64,000 nt of DNA from Candidatus Poribacteria bacterium (GCA_022822085.1 JAJECK010000051.1:62001-126000); one strand, 5' to 3'. Positions 6,001 to 25,167 are shown, counted from the first letter of the stretch. Notes: generated by a model not told the origin, from the sequence alone. Numbers and translations: made by a program.

Positions 6001-6669
6001 TGGGCAGAACAGTTAGTAGACCCATTACCGGATGGAGAATGTCCCCCAGGTGGAATGATGGAGTTGCCAAGTCTACCCCCTGAAATTGTCCTTGAGGTAT
6101 TACGTATCATCAATCGCGAGATTCAATTAAGAGAGGAAACGCGCGAAACGGAGAACGCAAAGGGCACTCTCAATTCCGATAAATATTATGAGCGAAGTGA
6201 AGGATTGAGCGATACACAATATGAAATCGCCGAGGATACACTTGAGATAGCAAGACAAATCAGTCTATTGCCAGAAGCGAATACACCACGTATCAGGCAG
6301 CAATACGCTAAAGTCGCTATGGCAGCAGAAGTTATGGAGGAAGCGGAAACAATCCTTGCCCAACCTAACACCGGTCCCGAAGCTATCGCAGCCATATCAG
6401 AAGTAATAGAAATCCTCCTTCAAACACAACGCGTTCCAAATACACCTGGTAGCGGCGGTGGTGGCGGTGACACACCAGGAGGTAGCGGTAATGTCTTTGC
6501 ACAATTAGTTTCCGCTATGGCACTCGGAAGTGGTAGCGGCGACGACTCCGGTGAGGTATTCATTGAAAAACGCTCTCCTAAACAAGCAATAGGAAAAACA
6601 GGGCGCGTCCTACCTGAAGAATTCCGACAAGGTTTAGACGCATATTTCAACGTTTTAGAGGGGAACTAA
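3100..6669 (+). CDS. DUF4175-like large membrane protein with Q/S-rich linker
   Basis: ATG at 3100 preceded by AAAGGAGAATATTA; two N-terminal TM helices, TM helix near residue 160, long helical C-term; ORF track starts 30 aa too early. Confidence 0.65.
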   Translation: MNQTPSQNNGVNLPPRMQKALEQYKKRVWIIKLAEGTLAAIFGLIVSYLIVFGLERLIDTPAPLRALILIVGMVGTVIFLPLKYYNWVWRNRQLEGIAKLLQHKFPRFGDHVLGIVELASERSDQSSSPALVAAAMRQVDEEVAKHNLKDAVPNPRHRRWAIAVGLPLLLVIIGVIIIPATTGNTLARWLTPWRNVERWTFAQLKGKPDPRVVAYAEPFDVEAQLKDESPWKPETGEARYAKQEPVVAERDGATYKFQLPPQTEEGKIKMRVGDARRSIPVEPKLRPALKELIANVQLPDYLQREEPRIDDVRGGIVSLVKGSTATLEATITRELSEATLNERPQKIEGEKITTEPIAVQKTTEMALTWRDHYGLAASEPQVVQFELQEDAEPTIAITKLKNNQVVLSTEVLTFEIQSADDFGVKQVGIEWEGIENPIQNPEPAIGEKTVSSGSPISESLIVPATFSVERENVPPQSLRLRAFAEDYFPNRERVRSPQIVLHVLSPSEHFKWLIGQMQLWAGAAKDVHDKELQLHQTNRELQDLPPEALDDPAQRKKLQEQAAAERANAAKLDSLIDSGKELVQEAAKNSEFDAEQLQSWGDMLKQLEEIAGKQMPSVANLLAQASEAPGQSSQKPSDSSQQSPSSPSSSPSQQSPSENQGEQQQNQASNGKSQQSDQQQKDAEQQQNQASGDKSQSSGKPQEGSGDDTKKYGPDSFVPPEGTDEDAEDPEDPNKRPDSVSVNRSKPPQGGEQGKPSPTNPTPGLSDVESGFNKPDKPSDAPPSQVVGGLAIPNTTLMGSGREDQGEDENTETPPAEELVVQAVEEQKELLDAFAKLSDEMKKLLVSFENSTFVKRLKAASRKQIDIAADLNKIDTFGLSDRGTKNQDVRKRLAEMESNESKKVTTIIQDMAAYTDRRPNDNYLRVLAEMEDASVSNQMRELVRSINRNYVGQSTIEAEYWADTLDRWAEQLVDPLPDGECPPGGMMELPSLPPEIVLEVLRIINREIQLREETRETENAKGTLNSDKYYERSEGLSDTQYEIAEDTLEIARQISLLPEANTPRIRQQYAKVAMAAEVMEEAETILAQPNTGPEAIAAISEVIEILLQTQRVPNTPGSGGGGGDTPGGSGNVFAQLVSAMALGSGSGDDSGEVFIEKRSPKQAIGKTGRVLPEEFRQGLDAYFNVLEGN

Positions 6670-6772
6670 TGACAAAATAACGTCATTCATCTCAGTAGGT
6701 GCGTTTTTCACCAATAAATTGAGATAAACCCATTAATTTAGATTCAATGTGCTGCACAACAGAGGAATACCG

Positions 6773-7720
6773 ATGGCTGTTAGGGAAAATGATGTTATAC
6801 CTTATGAGGTATTTGCCAGATTCAAACGGATAGAACAAGGAAATCCAATCATCTCTCTTCCTCCACCGCTTTGGGCAGCAGCAACGCATGCGATTGTTGT
6901 TGATGGGACGGTCCACTATATCTGGTGTAAACGCTATGTAGATCGTCGGTGGGTAATGATGCACGCCACAGCTCCTATCAGTGCTATCACCGACATTACA
7001 CAGGACAAACGAAATCCTATTATTGAACCTTCAGTAGATGGGTTTGACAATGCAGCCGTTGAGTATCCTTTTCCTTTTTTGAATCCTGCTGACGGCAAAT
7101 ACTATATGTATTATCGTGGTAAAGGAGAAACGACGCCTGAACAGACAGGATTGCTTGTAAGCGACGGTGATTTAGGTAAATGGCAACGTGTTCAACACAC
7201 GCCAGTCATCCCTGCGGATACAGAACACGAACTACACGGTTCAACACATCCCTCTGTAGCAATAGATGGTGATACAATCCACATTGTTTATACAGGCAAG
7301 GCAACGAAATCATTCGGTGAAGGACTAACGATGTGTCATGCCACCGCGCAAACAAACAATCCAGCATTGGTAACAAAAAGTCCCGCAAATCCCGTTTTCA
7401 CAGGTAGTGGGCAAGCATGGGATAGTAAAGCCGTTCGCGAAACTGAATTGTTTAAAGGTCCGGAGTATTTCCATATTCTCTATGGCGGTTTTGATGGGGA
7501 AGTATGGAGAATCGGGCATGTGCGGACTCGTGATTTCCTTAACTTTGAACCAAATCCATACAATCCTGTTTTCATACCATCTGACGACCCCGATGCTTTT
7601 GACTGCGACGGTGTCTTGACAGGACAGATCCTTGAAATTGACGATACTTATGTCATGCTCTATGCTGGTAAAAAAGGTAATGAATGGCAAACAGGTTTGG
7701 CTACAATACGAGAAGGTTAG
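6773..7720 (+). CDS. GH43/GH130-like five-bladed propeller glycosidase family protein
   Basis: Repeated blades (YMYYRGKG, IHIVYTGKAT, FHILYGGFDG, YVMLYAGKKG); start ATG 6773 after AGAGGAATACCG. Confidence 0.65.
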   Translation: MAVRENDVIPYEVFARFKRIEQGNPIISLPPPLWAAATHAIVVDGTVHYIWCKRYVDRRWVMMHATAPISAITDITQDKRNPIIEPSVDGFDNAAVEYPFPFLNPADGKYYMYYRGKGETTPEQTGLLVSDGDLGKWQRVQHTPVIPADTEHELHGSTHPSVAIDGDTIHIVYTGKATKSFGEGLTMCHATAQTNNPALVTKSPANPVFTGSGQAWDSKAVRETELFKGPEYFHILYGGFDGEVWRIGHVRTRDFLNFEPNPYNPVFIPSDDPDAFDCDGVLTGQILEIDDTYVMLYAGKKGNEWQTGLATIREG

Positions 7721-7741
7721 AACCAGAATGAGGGTTGACAA

Positions 7742-9451
7742 ATGCAACTCCGAAAAATTGTCCGTCTATATTTTGTTTTATTATTAGTTGCAGGCATTGC
7801 TTATGCAGAAGAAAACACTGCCAACGGTGGAAACATCATAGGAAAAATCCGTGATATTAAACAAAATCCAATTATTGGGGTTGAAGTCAAGATTGTTAGT
7901 TCTGATGGTAAAACTTTCACAGTAATATCAGATGCCGATGGCAATTATAAATTTTCAAACATTCCTGCGGGACGTTACACAGGGAACTATCACAAAAAAG
8001 GATATGGATCCCGAACTGGCCCGTCTATTGTGGTGGATAACGGAAGAAACCATGGTGTCCAACACATAATGCATAGCACAAAGGACATTCAGAAAATTCA
8101 GATTTTAGTTCATCACATTGCCGATAATATAGGGGTGTTATTCGACCTTGATGCTTTGGAGGTCAAGGCACTTCGTCAATCAATGCAGATATCGATTGAA
8201 AACGTATTAGAATATGATCAAAACTTGATGTCTATGGTCCTAAATTCCAGACATAGAAAAGGTGTGGAAATACTTGATGCATTGTTGACCCATTCCGAGA
8301 TAAAAAACACAATAGCCAAACATCTAAATACGCAACAACTAAAGGATTATATAGATTTCACCAAAACACGACAAAAGAATGCTCAACAAGCTTGTATTCA
8401 TTTTATCGCCGTCTTACTTGAGCAATCTCTCAGTCTAAGTATTGAGCAAAAAGATAGAATAATACAATTACTGATTGAAAGTAAAGATGCTGACAAACAA
8501 CTTACCTTAGAGAACTTAATAAGTGAACCACTTCAAAATATTGTAAATCTGATTAATAACGAATTAAAATTATCTCTGGACAATATATTGAACCAAACGC
8601 AGTTAGAATTATGGAAAGTAATGCTACAAATATATGAGGAAGAGAGGCATGAATTTGGAGATGTTGTAGGAATTGAGGTGCTTGAGGCACCAATGGATGA
8701 AGCAATAGAGAAACCAGAAAGGCAAAAGAAACAACTTCAGGTCAAGTCTAAAGAGGAAATCCGAGAATCTCTACTTTGGCAACTGGCAAAAACAGCCCTT
8801 ACGGCGCACACCGAACGTTTAGGACTACAGAATGAGCAAGACTTGAGACGGTTAGATCTGGCATCAGCCGGTGTAGCGCATCAATTCGTTGAAACACAAG
8901 ACATATATATTAATTCAAGAGTTCCATTTGTAGAAGACTCAAGCAACATCATAATGGCAGTGATGGCTTCCTCAATAACTCGTGAAGATGCTATCAAAAA
9001 ACTCAACACAATTGCTCAGGACCTTCAAGAAAAGAGAACCAACAACCAAGAGATTGTTGATGTATCTGACAAGACAGTTAATCCGTTATACCATCACACT
9101 TTGAATAACATGTTTTTTGATAGAATTTCTTACGTCTTAAATAATCCACTTTATCAACATGCTATCAGAGATGTTCTTCCCGAAGAGGCGTATACACAAT
9201 ATATTGAAAAAGAAACTGAAAGAATAGCATTTCTTCAACAAGCATCACGTGATCTTGTAGTTGCCAATATTGATATCTATCTACTTCTAAATGAAAACCA
9301 GCGGAAACATTTAGAAACAGCAGCAGCGCAGCTAACACTCCCGATCATAAGCAATGATGGACTAACATATATGATAATAAAACTTTTCCTTAGTGCTGCC
9401 ACTGAGACATGGAGTCCTTGGCAGCAACTTCAAGTAGTAAATGGAGGATAA
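7742..9451 (+). CDS. Secreted protein with carboxypeptidase-regulatory-like (CarboxypepD_reg) domain
   Basis: Signal peptide; GKIRDIKQNPIIGVEVKIVSSDGKTFTVISDADGNYKFSNIPAGRY. Confidence 0.6.
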   Translation: MQLRKIVRLYFVLLLVAGIAYAEENTANGGNIIGKIRDIKQNPIIGVEVKIVSSDGKTFTVISDADGNYKFSNIPAGRYTGNYHKKGYGSRTGPSIVVDNGRNHGVQHIMHSTKDIQKIQILVHHIADNIGVLFDLDALEVKALRQSMQISIENVLEYDQNLMSMVLNSRHRKGVEILDALLTHSEIKNTIAKHLNTQQLKDYIDFTKTRQKNAQQACIHFIAVLLEQSLSLSIEQKDRIIQLLIESKDADKQLTLENLISEPLQNIVNLINNELKLSLDNILNQTQLELWKVMLQIYEEERHEFGDVVGIEVLEAPMDEAIEKPERQKKQLQVKSKEEIRESLLWQLAKTALTAHTERLGLQNEQDLRRLDLASAGVAHQFVETQDIYINSRVPFVEDSSNIIMAVMASSITREDAIKKLNTIAQDLQEKRTNNQEIVDVSDKTVNPLYHHTLNNMFFDRISYVLNNPLYQHAIRDVLPEEAYTQYIEKETERIAFLQQASRDLVVANIDIYLLLNENQRKHLETAAAQLTLPIISNDGLTYMIIKLFLSAATETWSPWQQLQVVNGG

Positions 9452-9458
9452 TATAGCC

Positions 9459-10559
9459 ATGCAAAAATACAAAGAATTCTTTATCTTACCGAATCACACG
9501 CAAATTATTGTGTTTATGGGACTATTGATATTCATGGGCACGTTTATCAATGAATCTACCTTGGCACAAGACCCTACTCTACGCTACGGTACAGGTGTGC
9601 CGCCAGCAGTGAGAAGCATCAATGACCGATGTTTACGGTATCTCGTCAGCACACAGTTAGCAAATGGAAGTTGGCCCGGTTCACAAAATGGAGCAGGAAT
9701 TACGGGTATTTGTGTTATGGCATTGATGGCAAGTGGGGAAGACCCGGATTACGGTCCTTATGCACCCAACATACGTAAGGCACTGCGCCACATGATTTCT
9801 ATACAGGATGTCAGATCAGGATATATGGGAACAAGAAGTGGGCACGCATCAATGTATCACCACGGTTTTGCTATGTTGGCACTGTCCGAAGCGTATGGTG
9901 CTGTAGACGAAGACCTACTCTGGAAAGATAGCAATGTTCCGGCAAGTCGTAGGAGAACCATCAGCGAAACTTTAGAACTTGCAGTGCGATGTGCATTGAC
10001 TTCACAGGAAAAGAACCCTTGGGGGGCATGGAGATACTCTCCTCAAGCACGAGATGCTGACACAACCGTGGCAGGCACTGTGTTGATGGGAATCCTCGGG
10101 GCGCGTAACGCTGGTATTGAAATCCCTAATGAAGCGATTAACAAAGCATTGAACTTTTTTCAAACCTGCACAATAAAGGGTGGAGGTGTCTCTTATACCC
10201 CTTCAGGCAGCCACGGAGATGGGCTCACACGTTCCGCTATTGCGACACTCGTATATGCAATTGGCAAACGAAAAGATACACCTGAATATAAAGCCACTTC
10301 CGAATACATAAAACGTAGAGTAAATTACAGTACAGGTAATCATTATATGTTTTATACCCTATACTATATGGCACAGGCTCTATTTCAGACTGATTTGGAA
10401 GCATGGCAATCTTGGAATGAGCGTACCATTGAACGACTACAAAAAATGCAACAACCAGATGGAAGCTTCAACAGCTCCTACGGTAAAGCTTATGGAACGG
10501 GCATGGCTGTGCTTACATTGGCTTTGAACTACCGTCTGCTGCCTATTTACGAAAGGTAG
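9459..10559 (+). CDS. Prenyltransferase/squalene-oxidase repeat (terpenoid cyclase-like) secreted protein
   Basis: CLRYLVSTQLANGSWPGS, ALTSQEKNPWGAWRYSP, LQKMQQPDGSFNSSYGKAYGTGMAVLTL repeats. Confidence 0.7.
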   Translation: MQKYKEFFILPNHTQIIVFMGLLIFMGTFINESTLAQDPTLRYGTGVPPAVRSINDRCLRYLVSTQLANGSWPGSQNGAGITGICVMALMASGEDPDYGPYAPNIRKALRHMISIQDVRSGYMGTRSGHASMYHHGFAMLALSEAYGAVDEDLLWKDSNVPASRRRTISETLELAVRCALTSQEKNPWGAWRYSPQARDADTTVAGTVLMGILGARNAGIEIPNEAINKALNFFQTCTIKGGGVSYTPSGSHGDGLTRSAIATLVYAIGKRKDTPEYKATSEYIKRRVNYSTGNHYMFYTLYYMAQALFQTDLEAWQSWNERTIERLQKMQQPDGSFNSSYGKAYGTGMAVLTLALNYRLLPIYER

Positions 10560-18849: not shown

Positions 18850-19662
18850 TTTTATGACCCGACACGTCCAGAAGGTGTGCCGTGGCCAAACCCCGATGAT
18901 GAACTACTTTACCGCACGGTTATGCCGGATGATTACAAAAAACTTGCTGTCCCTGAAGGCGTTACGGGAACTGTAGTCGTTGAAGCGAGCAGATGGGTTG
19001 AAGACAACCAGTGGATTCTCGACCTTGCCGCAAATGAGTCGTTTATTGTTGGATTCGTTGGAAACCTAAATCCTAACGATGCAGATTTTGAGGAGAACCT
19101 TAAACGGTTTTCTGCCAATCCGCTTTTCCGTGGGATCCGTCTCGGTGGTGGTCTTATGCAATCACTTAGTGATGCTAACCTCGTAAAGAATATTGAGAAA
19201 TTAGCAGAGAAAGAACTCACTTTAGATCTGCTCATAAACCCTGAAGCATTAAGACATCTACCTGCTCTGGTTGAACACATTCCGACAATGCGTGTTGTGA
19301 TTAACCACATCGCTGGCGTTCGCGTTGACGGTAATCCACCCGACGAAGCGTGGGTTTCGGCGATTCAGGAAGCTGCCCGTTATCCGAATGTCTACTGCAA
19401 GGTATCAGGGTTAGCAGAGCATACGGGTCAAACACCCGCCCCTGAAGACGTTGCATACTACACACCAACAATTGATGTATTGTGGGATGCATTTGGTGAA
19501 GATAGACTCATCTACGGCAGTAACTGGCCTGTTTCGGAACGATTTGCCCAATACAAAGTCGTACAAAAGATTGTTGATGACTACTTCAGCGCGAAAGGCG
19601 ATGAAGTCTCTGAAAAATACTTTTGGCAAAATGCAAAGGCAGCATATCAGTTAGCTATTTAG
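18823..19662 (+). CDS. Amidohydrolase (Amidohydro_2, metal-dependent TIM-barrel hydrolase)
   Basis: MIIDTHTHFYDP; RGIRLGGG; VINHIAG; YGSNWPV. Confidence 0.85.
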   Translation: MMIIDTHTHFYDPTRPEGVPWPNPDDELLYRTVMPDDYKKLAVPEGVTGTVVVEASRWVEDNQWILDLAANESFIVGFVGNLNPNDADFEENLKRFSANPLFRGIRLGGGLMQSLSDANLVKNIEKLAEKELTLDLLINPEALRHLPALVEHIPTMRVVINHIAGVRVDGNPPDEAWVSAIQEAARYPNVYCKVSGLAEHTGQTPAPEDVAYYTPTIDVLWDAFGEDRLIYGSNWPVSERFAQYKVVQKIVDDYFSAKGDEVSEKYFWQNAKAAYQLAI

Positions 19663-20228
19663 GCGACCCATCGTATAAACTCAGCTGCGGGTTGCCGTTT
19701 CGGTTCCTTAATTTCTGCGGGATAACCGGTATAGAAGAAACCGATGATGTATTCTTGCGATGAATCGATGCCGAGCAATTTATAGGTCTGCTCTTCCATC
19801 GTGATTCTACCGGTGCTCCACTGCATGCCGACACCTGCATCCCACGCAGCGAGTTGGACGTTCTGCATTGCACAACAGGCAGCAGCGTAATCTTCGCGTT
19901 GTCGTTGTTCGTCTCCATCTTGGACACAGGACACAGCGATAATCGTTGGCTTAGACATAAATTTCTCGTAAGCCAATTGCCCAATCTTTGCGAGGTTCTC
20001 CGCATCAACGTGGTCAGGTGTGTCCTCCATCTTGATTTCTCGGTATCGTTGTGCCAGGATCAGTTTCGTTTTTTCACCGATTACGGTGAACCGCCACGGT
20101 TCTGTGACATGATGGTTCGGTGCCCATATCCCGTAACTGAAGATTTGTTCAATTACGTCGTTAGGCACGGGTTCCTCTTTGAATTTGAAAATTGTTCGTC
20201 TTGAGATGATTGCATCTTTTACGTCCAT
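19659..20228 (-). CDS. Nitroreductase family protein
   Basis: DAIISRRTIFKFKEEPVP, WAPNHHVTEPWRF. Confidence 0.85.
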   Translation of the reverse strand: MDVKDAIISRRTIFKFKEEPVPNDVIEQIFSYGIWAPNHHVTEPWRFTVIGEKTKLILAQRYREIKMEDTPDHVDAENLAKIGQLAYEKFMSKPTIIAVSCVQDGDEQRQREDYAAACCAMQNVQLAAWDAGVGMQWSTGRITMEEQTYKLLGIDSSQEYIIGFFYTGYPAEIKEPKRQPAAEFIRWVA

Positions 20229-20297: not shown

Positions 20298-21731
20298 TTA
20301 CCCTAATTCAGCTTTAAGGCTTTCCACTGCTTCAACGGTATCCTCAATTTCTTTCTTTGGTATATTTGCAATAGTAGCATGACTGAGCGGGTTTAAAATA
20401 CGAGTCCGATACGTCTCAATGTCATTAATCAGTTTCTTGTCCAACAAAGCAGAACCCCCATTTTCAGTTCTTCTCTTATTTTCAATTTTTATTGCATCCC
20501 AGAAATGTTTACTATCTTGTTTGTCTGGGTGTCGATGGTATTTGACAGGCAGATGTTTATTTTCACAGAATTCCTCTATTATCACCTCAAACGCTGTGCG
20601 TAGATAAACCGCACATGCTTTATAGTCGTTCATATCAATATATTCCTTCGCCTTCTCAAGATATGCCTTATCTTCCGTATAAACAGGGATTTCATATTCA
20701 TCGGTTTGCCGAAAATAAAACTCAACGGCTTTCCATTTCCCACCGTGGGATGTCCTTTGCTTGACAATCTCGTACCACACCTTATCATAAGTCGTCAAAA
20801 AGACTTGGTAATCTGCAAAATATTCTTCTAAAATATCAAGTACTGGGAGACGGTTTGACATGTCCAAACCGATTAGCACGTCATCTAACGCGATGATTTT
20901 GAGATCGCTTTCTGGCTGGAGCAGGATTGACGAAAAATAGATGGCAATTGCAATCGCTGACAGTTTTGCTTCATTTAGAAAAAGGTGGTGTGCGGGAATG
21001 TCTTTGTCAAAAAACACAACGTTCAAAAGAGTTTCCTGATTATCAAGTGTCTTTTTATCCTGGTTGTATGTTATCCCTTGAAAAGTTAAGTCAAGAGCAA
21101 CGTTATATCCAAATTTTAGAAGAATATCGGATGCTTTCACCTGCAGTATTTCCAATCTACGTTTTAATTCACTGTTGAAGGTTTCTATTTCTGTTTCCAA
21201 TTCTGCGATTTTCGTTTTGGCGTTTCGGCGGGGACGCGGCTCCTGTTGGACGCTTTCCAATTCTTCACCAAGTGTTCGATTTGTTACAGGATTGATGGTG
21301 TTGACCAGAAGATTATCCACTAACAATTTGAAGACATTCACGTTTTCTTCTTCACGATGGACGTAATGCGTTTCCAGCAGATTTTTATAGTCAAGAAAAC
21401 CCTTTGCTCTTGATGCTTCAATAATCAATGGATCATTCGTTTCTCTGACGTTTTGAGACCATTCATACACGTGCTCATTGGATCCTGAGTTTGCGCGGAG
21501 ATGTAGTTTAATGTGTCCATCATCGTTTGCAATAAAGATGTTCTGGTGATTTTCAAATTGGTGAATCCCTTCACCGGATTCCAGAAAGAATTTTAATGCC
21601 TGATACAAGGACGTTTTTCCACTGCCATTTTCGCCGTAAACAAGCAAATTCTTACCAGCCTTGTGCAGTTCGATCTGATACGGTCCATAAAAAGCTCTAA
21701 AGTTTTTAATCTCAATTTTGGTAATTCTCAT
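20298..21731 (-). CDS. RecF/SMC-like AAA ATPase with HEPN-like C-terminal region; putative defence ATPase
   Basis: IKNFRAFYGPYQIEL, Walker A GENGSGKTSLY, LNEAKLSAIAIAIYFS, Walker B IIALDDVLIGLD; C-term RILNPLSH. Confidence 0.8.
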   Translation of the reverse strand: MRITKIEIKNFRAFYGPYQIELHKAGKNLLVYGENGSGKTSLYQALKFFLESGEGIHQFENHQNIFIANDDGHIKLHLRANSGSNEHVYEWSQNVRETNDPLIIEASRAKGFLDYKNLLETHYVHREEENVNVFKLLVDNLLVNTINPVTNRTLGEELESVQQEPRPRRNAKTKIAELETEIETFNSELKRRLEILQVKASDILLKFGYNVALDLTFQGITYNQDKKTLDNQETLLNVVFFDKDIPAHHLFLNEAKLSAIAIAIYFSSILLQPESDLKIIALDDVLIGLDMSNRLPVLDILEEYFADYQVFLTTYDKVWYEIVKQRTSHGGKWKAVEFYFRQTDEYEIPVYTEDKAYLEKAKEYIDMNDYKACAVYLRTAFEVIIEEFCENKHLPVKYHRHPDKQDSKHFWDAIKIENKRRTENGGSALLDKKLINDIETYRTRILNPLSHATIANIPKKEIEDTVEAVESLKAELG

Positions 21732-24700
21732 GCCTTACCCTCAATGATGCGAATAGGTTTGACACTGCTCATAAAGAACAGATCAACAGCGACCGGATGT
21801 GTTTTTTCATATAATCGATCAAAGATGTCCCGGCACGCGGACATTTTATCTCCTTGAATATCTTCAAGCTGCGGCAACTGTTCATCAAACAGCGGTTGGA
21901 AAAAATGTTTGTTCCCTTTATGAAGTTCGTCTGGCAGATAAGACTCATAAACCATGCCGTCAATGATTCGCTCAAAATATCCGAGCATCACACGGTCGCG
22001 GGCATACGCCAAATCTCTGCTATTTATCGTCGGTTGTTGCTGGAGATAGATAAGATAGTCAACAAATTTGCCGATAAGTGTCTTTTGCGTTGATGTAATT
22101 TCGGGGACAGGAATCTGTTGCATATAACCACTACGCGCACGCAGGTAATCAATCGTCAACTGGTTAGACTCCTGTGAGTAAAACCACTCGACAACACGCG
22201 AATTCAATAGACCGCATAACCACAATTCTTCGGTAGGGATAAGGTAACACTTATCCCCGCAATAAAAACCTGCGGTATCGACTGCAAAAGTTTGGTGATT
22301 ATAGAGATTTGGACAGATAAGTTTCGGTTGTGAAAACCGATGCGACTTATCAAGAGAGATTGGGAGTTCGTACCATTCCTGTTTACCAACCCTTTTGCTC
22401 AAAATATCCCTATAATTTCCCAAGTGTTTCAAGATTGCTGGATACTCATCTATCGTTATGCCCCGATGTGCAAATATTAACCACTGTCCTTGTGGCTCTG
22501 CATGCCAGCGTCTGAGGTCGCGTCCGTACAAAAACGGTTTCAAAATATCTGCCGATGATGGATGCGCGGCAATGAGGTTATCCCGCGTCGCTTCGTCCAC
22601 AACAAATGCTTCAGTTGGGGAGGTCTTGATGCCGAAGGAAGGTTTCACTTTGATGTACTCACCCAAGGAGGTGCCAACATTGCGAAGTTGCTCAAGCAAA
22701 CTCATCACATTTGGTGATTCCATAGGTTTCTTGTCTTCATCTAATATTTTGTGGGTTTTAGGGTGCCGGACTCGCAGTCGCTGCGTTAACATGAATTTAA
22801 TGTCTTCCGGAACTCGGAAACCTTTATACTGCTTAAACGTCTCAATGTTTTTATAACTGTTATGAAACGAAGCGATGATATCAACCCCTTTGTCTTTGGC
22901 AGCGGTCAGGTCGGCTTTTGCCTTATCCCATTTTTTCAGATGTAACATCACTTCACCACGATTGCAGTATGCAAGACCAAGTTCCGGATTCAATTCTATT
23001 GCCTTGTTATAATCTTCAATAGCACTATCAAAATCGCGTTTTTGATAGTAAGCATTACCACGATTGTAATAAGGATGAAAGAGTTTTGGATTCAATTCTA
23101 TTGCTTTGCTATAATCTTTGATAGCACTATCTAAATCACCCTTTTCATGGTAAGCAAGCCCCCGGTTGTAATATGCTTCAACAAAATCCTGTTTCAACTG
23201 TATTGCGATGTCATAGTCTTTAATAGCACTATCATAATTCCCTTTGTTGCGGTAAGCAGCACCGCGATTGCTATAAGGTTCAGCATAATCCGATTTTAGT
23301 TGTATCGCTTTGTTGCAGTCTTCTATAGCTAAATCGTACTCACCTTTGCTGCGATAAACAGCACCGCGATTGTTATAGGCTGAGTCATAGTCCGGTTTAA
23401 GATCAATTGCTTTGTCAAAATCTTTGATAGCAAGATCATGCTCACCTTTTTCGCCATATTCAACACCGCGATTATTATAAAAACTGGCATCATTATTTCG
23501 CGTGGATTTAGGCAACCAAAGTAGTTCACCTGGTCGTGGCTTCTGTATTATTCCGAATTCGGTCCTGGGTAATATTCTTTTCTTCATCTGGCTTTTTGGA
23601 TGGACAGAATATGGGATATATCCCCCACGATCAAAGTTTGGACTCGCATTATCCGGGTCTCCTGATAATACAATACCATAAGAAAAAGGACCAACCGAAA
23701 GACCGGTAAAGAAATCTAACATACAACCAATATTGTCCCCTTTTACAAAAAAGCGGACATAGTGCCTATGTTCAGTAGAATCATAAATCAGAGTTTCGGT
23801 CGCTGGGTTTTTCCCTTGAGTTCCAATACTTTCAGGATTCCCATTTCCTTTATTGATAAAATCTTTGATATCCTCAAACATAGGTTCGTGTCCAGTAAAT
23901 TCACGATAGTGGTACAAAAAACAATGAAATGCTATTTTTGCTATCGCTCTGGTAATGTATTTCGTGGCTCTCCGATCAGGTATTGCTTGGACAGACTGTG
24001 AAAAAACATCCGTTTTAAGAGATCTATCTCCTTCTATAATTTCCTTTGTTTCACCTTGAAGAGCATTGTAGAATGTCTCTACTTTACCCATATATTTACC
24101 TTCCTCAGGATAAATAACCCTCACGTCATATCGCGTTTGAGGAAAATCTGTTATAAACTTGGATTTAAATTCATTTACTCTACCAAAATACCTTTCTGCT
24201 GTCTTTGGTGGCAAAATGTAAGTATTTCCAAAAATGCAGTATACATCATCTTGTTCGTCATAATCTGTAATGAGGTCATCATCTGGACCGATAGTGTTAA
24301 ATTTTTCTCGGTTTTCTGCAACGACATCAGTACCAGTTTGTCCTTCAGTATATTGAGTTATTATAATCTGCGGTTGTAGAGCACTTGCAGAATATACAAA
24401 AGCTCTTGTTTCATTATCTTCTAATCCTGGTTCATGTAGGATAATTAAGTCATCGTATAGAGGGTCGGGGAAAAACACTCGCAATGGATTAACTCCAACA
24501 GATCTTTTGTAATAAATTGATGAAAACAAATCTTTAGAATTGACACCCAATTCATCCTTAACTCTATTCCATACATAAGCTATATGAGATTTCTGGGACA
24601 AGACCACATCAAGTTTCCCTAAATCGCTATTGCAATTTTTACACAAGTGTTTATCAATCACCCATCCAGGAGCATCCTTTTGAAGTAATGACTTGGGAAA

Positions 24701-24760
24701 CGCATGCTCTCTACTTAGAATCTTTTCTTTTTTGCAATAAATACATTTTCCTTTGAACAT
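21728..24760 (-). CDS. HNH-type zinc nuclease domain + TPR repeats + TaqI-like C-terminal specificity domain
   Basis: CIYCKKEKILSREHAFPKSL...HLCKNCN; six TPRs; LKPFLYGRDLRRW...WLIFAHRG...LCGLLNSRVVEWFY...IPVPEI as in type IIG RM C-termini; start ATG 24760 behind GGAGG; 4-bp overlap with downstream ATPase. Confidence 0.75.
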   Translation of the reverse strand: MFKGKCIYCKKEKILSREHAFPKSLLQKDAPGWVIDKHLCKNCNSDLGKLDVVLSQKSHIAYVWNRVKDELGVNSKDLFSSIYYKRSVGVNPLRVFFPDPLYDDLIILHEPGLEDNETRAFVYSASALQPQIIITQYTEGQTGTDVVAENREKFNTIGPDDDLITDYDEQDDVYCIFGNTYILPPKTAERYFGRVNEFKSKFITDFPQTRYDVRVIYPEEGKYMGKVETFYNALQGETKEIIEGDRSLKTDVFSQSVQAIPDRRATKYITRAIAKIAFHCFLYHYREFTGHEPMFEDIKDFINKGNGNPESIGTQGKNPATETLIYDSTEHRHYVRFFVKGDNIGCMLDFFTGLSVGPFSYGIVLSGDPDNASPNFDRGGYIPYSVHPKSQMKKRILPRTEFGIIQKPRPGELLWLPKSTRNNDASFYNNRGVEYGEKGEHDLAIKDFDKAIDLKPDYDSAYNNRGAVYRSKGEYDLAIEDCNKAIQLKSDYAEPYSNRGAAYRNKGNYDSAIKDYDIAIQLKQDFVEAYYNRGLAYHEKGDLDSAIKDYSKAIELNPKLFHPYYNRGNAYYQKRDFDSAIEDYNKAIELNPELGLAYCNRGEVMLHLKKWDKAKADLTAAKDKGVDIIASFHNSYKNIETFKQYKGFRVPEDIKFMLTQRLRVRHPKTHKILDEDKKPMESPNVMSLLEQLRNVGTSLGEYIKVKPSFGIKTSPTEAFVVDEATRDNLIAAHPSSADILKPFLYGRDLRRWHAEPQGQWLIFAHRGITIDEYPAILKHLGNYRDILSKRVGKQEWYELPISLDKSHRFSQPKLICPNLYNHQTFAVDTAGFYCGDKCYLIPTEELWLCGLLNSRVVEWFYSQESNQLTIDYLRARSGYMQQIPVPEITSTQKTLIGKFVDYLIYLQQQPTINSRDLAYARDRVMLGYFERIIDGMVYESYLPDELHKGNKHFFQPLFDEQLPQLEDIQGDKMSACRDIFDRLYEKTHPVAVDLFFMSSVKPIRIIEGKA
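22890..23490 (-). repeat. In-frame TPR-coding tandem repeat (~102 bp unit)
   Basis: Repeated YNNRGxxYxxKGxxDxAIxDxxKAIxLxxD units. Confidence 0.85.
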
Positions 24761-24858: not shown

Positions 24859-25101
24859 TTATTTTAGTTTCCCACGAAAGACAGCCATAAACGCCTCTGG
24901 CAGTTCGTCAAAATTTTCGGCAATCTTCACTTTACCCTTCCACTGCCCATCACGGCGCGGTTTCTTTTCACCCTGTTCTAAAGGGACCAGTTTGACAACA
25001 GAAGTGCCGTTACTATCAAATATAATATCTTCTCCTGCTACAGCGCGTTTGACTAACTGTGTCAAATAATCTTCCGCTTGTTCATGTATATCAATATGCA
25101 T
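24859..25101 (-). CDS. Phd/YefM-type antitoxin-like protein without adjacent toxin
   Basis: MHIDIHEQAEDYLTQLVKRAVAGEDIIFDSNGTSVVKLVPLE matches Phd_antitoxin pattern; internal start chosen. Confidence 0.7.
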   Translation of the reverse strand: MHIDIHEQAEDYLTQLVKRAVAGEDIIFDSNGTSVVKLVPLEQGEKKPRRDGQWKGKVKIAENFDELPEAFMAVFRGKLK

Positions 25102-25167
25102 TTGTCTGACCTCTTGTAAATTTGTATTATATTGTACTACAACACACCACATGAATACAACACATTG

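Follow-up and report, generated by a model that had tools for sequence, protein, structure and literature searches.

We analysed a 64,000-nucleotide stretch of DNA from a Candidatus Poribacteria bacterium (GCA_022822085.1 JAJECK010000051.1:62001-126000; hereafter the window), in which two overlapping genes at positions 20298 to 24760 had been proposed, in an initial annotation, to form a defence operon. Both genes lie on the minus strand, and both open reading frames (ORFs) proved to be intact. Gene 1 (21728..24760), delimited with Pfam and PADLOC domains, encodes a protein of 1010 amino acids in which an effector module is followed by tetratricopeptide repeats (TPRs) and a target-recognition domain (TRD); its ATG is located at 24760, with GGAGG 7 nt upstream. 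Gene 2 (20298..21731), aligned with 25 homologues, encodes a 477-amino-acid SMC/Rad50-type ABC ATPase. Gene 1 ends at 21728 and the ATG of gene 2 is at 21731, giving a 4-bp stop/start overlap (ATGA, 21728..21731); the proposal of a two-gene operon was correct. No family in PADLOC or NCBIfam covers the pair, in agreement with the earlier claim that it belongs to no named system. The literature searched, to which subscription journals and preprints mostly did not belong, contained no description of this architecture, and an earlier description may exist.

The central region of the gene 1 product (about residues 420-640; 22845..23530, minus strand; residues are numbered as in P0001, which has one extra N-terminal residue) consists of about six TPRs (Pfam TPR_1, E 6e-55; TPR_2, up to six stretches; Pfam TPR matches at about residues 420-625). 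It is followed, from about residue 672 to 1011 (21731..22750, minus strand), by a type IIG-derived TRD and C-terminal region, recognized by identity to type IIG enzymes and by TaqI_C at residues 742-886 (51.7 bits against a cut-off of 26.5). The TPRs and the TaqI-type TRD had thus been correctly predicted. The PADLOC profile for type IIG enzymes (REase_MTase_IIG) covered residues 670-900 only, which correspond to the portion located C-terminal to the methylase of genuine type IIG proteins. Searches of the gene 1 product for an N6-adenine methyltransferase gave no Eco57I/N6_Mtase match and no NPPY/F motif, consistent with the prediction that it has none.

In place of the PD-(D/E)XK nuclease that is fused to type IIG enzymes, the N-terminus of the gene 1 product is HNH_5-like. 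This effector module occupies about residues 1-410 (23531..24760, minus strand). The Pfam HNH_5 match at residues 7-50 scored 22.8 bits, below the cut-off of 27.5 (E 9e-5); in an alignment of 12 homologues, C6xxC9, E18H19 and C40xxC43N44 were invariant. The AlphaFold2 (AF2) model of the entire module was of low confidence (predicted local distance difference test score, pLDDT, 66); its first ~56 residues showed the beta-beta-alpha order, with pLDDT 80-91 up to residue 50. A fold search of the PDB with this model produced no significant match, and none was found in a search of solved structures with the HNH profile. We consider an HNH nuclease fold probable for the gene 1 product: the invariant Cys/His motif and the predicted beta-beta-alpha order support the fold that had been claimed, whereas a structural match was lacking. 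The module was found in the window, in the related locus L034 and in two decayed loci (L154 and L157), and elsewhere also in stand-alone proteins.

The gene 2 product contains GENGSGKT, NEAKLSA and LDDVLIGLD as its Walker A, signature and Walker B motifs. In Foldseek searches, its AF2 model (mean pLDDT 81) matched best to SMC1A heads (E 3.6e-12). Based on the model and the motifs, the protein is placed among the SMC/Rad50-type ABC ATPases, close to the RecF/SMC-like ATPase suggested before. Its C-terminal domain (residues 357-477, the final 120) is helical. At residues 446-451 (window ~20379-20396) there is an L-N-x-x-x-H stretch, with N447 and H451 invariant in 25 homologues; the N-x3-H pattern resembles a HEPN motif without its usual Arg.

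Employing the ATPase as a query, we found a match in 27 of 60 related genomes and a strong match in 41 of the 87 genomes of the phylum, a patchy, accessory-like distribution. In the clade of the window's ATPase, every assessable member but one has a TPR-TRD gene before the ATPase gene, with an overlap of 4 or 7 bp. The pairing is strongly conserved, which bears out the co-occurrence that the initial annotation required. Because dozens of genomes show this arrangement of two overlapping genes, and because dN/dS values (ratios of nonsynonymous to synonymous substitution rates) of 0.14-0.27 indicate purifying selection on both the ATPase and the TPR-TRD protein, the pair is far beyond chance. When named genomes were scanned with the alignment of the ATPase (best 80 loci; rarer effector forms may exist elsewhere), the form with an effector was seen in Poribacteria, Latescibacterota and one Gemmatimonadetes metagenome-assembled genome.

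Decayed copies do exist at the window's locus. In L157 (4481-7438), the HNH-TPR-TRD gene is intact and the ATPase broken; in L154 (605-3684), the HNH-TPR-TRD gene is split and the ATPase absent. Such copies would suit a decaying restriction remnant that had gained TPR and HNH pieces by chance. However, the dN/dS values, the invariant ATPase and effector motifs and the overlap shared across dozens of genomes argue against this explanation; the remnant or pseudogene reading was rejected on selection and conservation, and we regard it as hardly credible.

The N-terminal effector varies among relatives: it is mostly a TIR domain, in others FRG, and rarely HNH. The HNH and ATPase pairing emphasized in the initial annotation is present here, but HNH is just one of several exchangeable effectors, of which TIR is the usual one. 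Pfam searches identified TIR_2 in three tested relatives (E 3e-16, 3e-27 and 7e-13) and FRG in others (E 3e-17 and 4e-13). The S..S..C..EL motif, which bears the catalytic Glu in TIR NADases, was retained in 16 of 17 TIR domains; in the divergent TIR of L039 it reads NQEL. The FRG motifs YRGE and DFT were retained in five of five cases; FRG has been assigned to the ART superfamily and suggested to be an NADase (PMC9503650).

Five relatives looked like TPR-only proteins (L040, L053, L055, L060 and L063) and were rejected as effectorless forms: their effector is encoded by a separate upstream effector-TPR gene, FRG-TPR in L040, L055 and L060 and TIR-TPR in L053 and L063. These split forms suggest that TPR arms may link the effector to the TRD. 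For other TPR-only relatives (e.g. L032, L035, L041, L054, L185 and L186), no effector was visible in the stretch read. The window's genome has a second copy of the pair with a TIR effector (L031, G000:C58:6000-18000, at 6020-9732), whose TRD and ATPase are 66% and 62% identical to those of the window. An in-frame fusion of TIR, TPR and a truncated TRD with the C-terminal half of the ATPase was observed in L056 (6469-8817), apparently the product of an internal deletion.

In ten loci, counting the window, the ATPase gene is directly followed by the same nitroreductase gene. In the window it lies in the downstream flank, outside the system (19659..20228, minus strand; Pfam Nitroreductase). At this chromosomal site, the effector is HNH in the window and L034, a fused FRG in L033, L061 and L065, and a domain on its own gene in L060 (FRG-TPR) and L063 (TIR-TPR); no effector is visible in L032 and L035, and the contig of L062 ends before the effector position. 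Compared to the window, L032 shows 85% identity in the ATPase and 54% in the TRD, and L035 shows 72% and 84%, respectively. The divergence of the TRD is greatest at about residues 790-890. Judging from these identities, exchange of the TRD is uncoupled from the ATPase, and the pattern is that expected if the effector and the sequence specificity were both exchanged.

Outside the clade, homologues of the ATPase (30-63% identity) adjoin full type IIG genes of ~1100-1385 amino acids in which NPPY/F is present. These type IIG-partnered ATPases occur in Cyanobacteria, Chloroflexi, Bacteroidota, Proteobacteria, Planctomycetes, Verrucomicrobia and other phyla; at several loci with an intervening gene, the type IIG gene is located a few kb upstream of the ATPase gene. 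The libraries and papers searched assigned no role to this widespread ATPase. From about residue 672, the C-terminus of the window's gene 1 product is 41-44% identical to its closest type IIG enzymes (L070, L082, L087 and L093). In a quick, midpoint-rooted tree of the ATPases, the effector forms made up a group of 37 rows lying among the type IIG partners (Shimodaira-Hasegawa-like approximate likelihood ratio, SH-aLRT, 99). FRG, HNH and TIR were scattered within this group (5, 2 and 6 changes). The group also contains a Latescibacteria pair, L070, that again has a full type IIG partner and is the sole exception to TPR-TRD pairing in the clade.

Since full type IIG genes accompany the ATPase in many phyla, the pair appears to descend from a type IIG enzyme with its ATPase; the direction of change, from the type IIG form to the effector form, is drawn from how widespread the former is, the tree being midpoint-rooted. 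The simplest reading of these sequences is that the nuclease and methylase were replaced by an effector and TPRs while the TRD and ATPase were retained. The pair shares with type IIG restriction-modification genes and their partner SMC-like ATPase the TRD and C-terminus (41-44% identity), the ATPase (up to 63%), the gene order and the overlap. It differs from them in the absence of the nuclease-methylase half, in place of which there are TPRs and TIR, FRG or HNH.

Further arrangements were seen around these ATPases. In the Bacteroidota loci L107, L110, L117 and L131, relatives of the ATPase overlap or closely follow genes that by eye are McrC-, DEAD-type helicase- or GmrSD/DUF262-like; L107 and L110 also have a type IIG gene a few kb upstream. 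TRD-only proteins adjoin the ATPase in L119 (6841-9836) and in L178, a Nostoc plasmid (4988-7434), and a full type IIG gene lies immediately upstream in L119.

An ABC-type ATPase adjoining an HNH-type protein recalls Septu (PtuA ATPase and PtuB HNH nuclease), and the initial annotation had drawn this comparison. The N-terminal P-loop is indeed similar to PtuA in PADLOC (32 bits, at the P-loop end only). However, the NCBIfam PtuA profile scored 15.5 bits against a cut-off of 500, PADLOC gave no match to PtuB, and the nearest ATPases come from type IIG loci. The ATPase belongs instead to the widespread family of type IIG partners; a TRD and TPRs are present here, and HNH, replaced by TIR or FRG in sister systems, is not conserved across the family. 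Septu membership was rejected by the profile tests and is also disfavoured by the tree, and a Septu-like system with added domains is very improbable. Overall, the initial annotation held as to the operon, the domains, the missing methylase, the type of ATPase and the unnamed status of the pair, but not as to kinship with Septu or HNH as a fixed partner.

Ordinary restriction, in which the TRD guides cutting by the HNH module and a protective methylase is encoded elsewhere, would agree with the invariant HNH motif and the type IIG origin of the TRD, and other Eco57I-type methylases exist in the window's genome. A matching methylase elsewhere in that genome was nevertheless rejected, since the type IIG TRDs there are only 27-38% identical to that of gene 1. 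Moreover, in most sister systems the effector is TIR or FRG and not a nuclease, and ordinary restriction has no need of six or more TPRs. We consider it improbable.

In about a dozen related loci (L038, L039, L042, L045, L047, L049, L053, L080, L084, L182, L187 and L189), a type IIG gene of the same orientation is located upstream, and the TRDs of these enzymes show distant or undetectable similarity. Such neighbours would be in line with the main rival explanation, a guard in which the TRD serves as bait: the DNA mimics or inhibitors with which phages counter restriction would bind the restriction-like TRD-ATPase complex and release the effector. A guard would account for retention of the TRD without a methylase, and it has published precedents. 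PrrC is held silent by a restriction system and is released once phage Stp inactivates that system (PMC3710099), and AriA, the ABC ATPase of PARIS, detects Ocr (PMC12839542). Against it, no restriction enzyme is linked at the window's locus, and the TRD cassettes undergo exchange, with their divergence peaking where sequence specificity would predict, which a pure bait does not need. A guard therefore seems unlikely, with a small but real chance of being correct.

Directly upstream of the pair, a 97-amino-acid ORF (window 24859-25152) resembles a Phd/YefM-type antitoxin by eye; a Pfam search with it gave no match. A Phd/YefM-like ORF is likewise located upstream of the pair in L058.

The architecture, the conserved pairing, the relationship to type IIG enzymes, the in-place effector swapping, the TRD exchange, the conserved effector motifs and the purifying selection are observed here. 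We think it likely that a type IIG enzyme and its partner ATPase gave rise to a modular system against invaders, of which the pair represents one version: the TRD and ATPase were retained, and a TPR arm carries an effector that can be exchanged. In such a system, the TRD would read the sequence of incoming DNA, or its modification state. The SMC-like ATPase would clamp onto this DNA and check whether it is foreign, replicating or broken, and an ATP-dependent rearrangement would then release or cluster the TPR-tethered effector. The window's effector is probably an HNH DNase; those of the sister systems are TIR (NADase-type) or FRG (ART superfamily) domains. Because sister systems use TIR and FRG, activation probably is self-limiting or kills the infected cell, and does not amount to ordinary restriction.

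Several points weigh against this modular anti-invader system. Every functional step in it is inferred, the clade is known almost solely from metagenome-assembled genomes, and the HNH module is sub-threshold in Pfam and has no structural match. No methylase is linked to the pair at the window's locus, and the type IIG TRDs of its own genome are dissimilar, so that discrimination between self and non-self lacks an obvious basis; the cell would have to be protected in some other way, such as methylation through an unlinked enzyme, gating by the ATPase or rarity of the site. A search of a phage collection with the ATPase gave no match, and a plasmid search gave one good match, from Nostoc, so mobility is not evident.

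Among known systems, PrrC/RloC (ABC-HEPN) similarly couple an ABC ATPase to a restriction-type complex and share a conceptual backup or alarm logic (PMC3710099); here the effector sits on the TRD protein, not on the ATPase. PARIS (AriA/AriB) likewise has an ABC ATPase as its sensor and an effector as the partner, and the AriA profile matched weakly (44.7 bits, P-loop end only); unlike PARIS, the present pair has no TOPRIM nuclease, and the partner carries a TRD.

It may be, at a little under an even chance in our estimate, that the immune architecture is categorically new, with a TRD and an SMC-like ATPase that, without a cognate methylase, trigger interchangeable cell-level effectors (TIR, FRG or HNH) upon DNA recognition. 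In Thoeris and short prokaryotic Argonaute-TIR systems, a TIR effector is activated by a separate recognition part, whereas the recognition part here is a protein TRD of restriction-enzyme origin. A general question thereby becomes testable: whether a protein TRD can replace a guide RNA to switch on a TIR or ART effector, and how self DNA is spared without a methylase. From its sequence, the gene pair points to a candidate new kind of antiviral alarm in sponge-symbiont bacteria. If this is true, restriction-modification and abortive-infection immunity would be joined in one evolutionary series, with all of its forms surviving side by side: type IIG with ATPase, type IIG beside effector-TPR-TRD with ATPase, and effector-TPR-TRD with ATPase alone.

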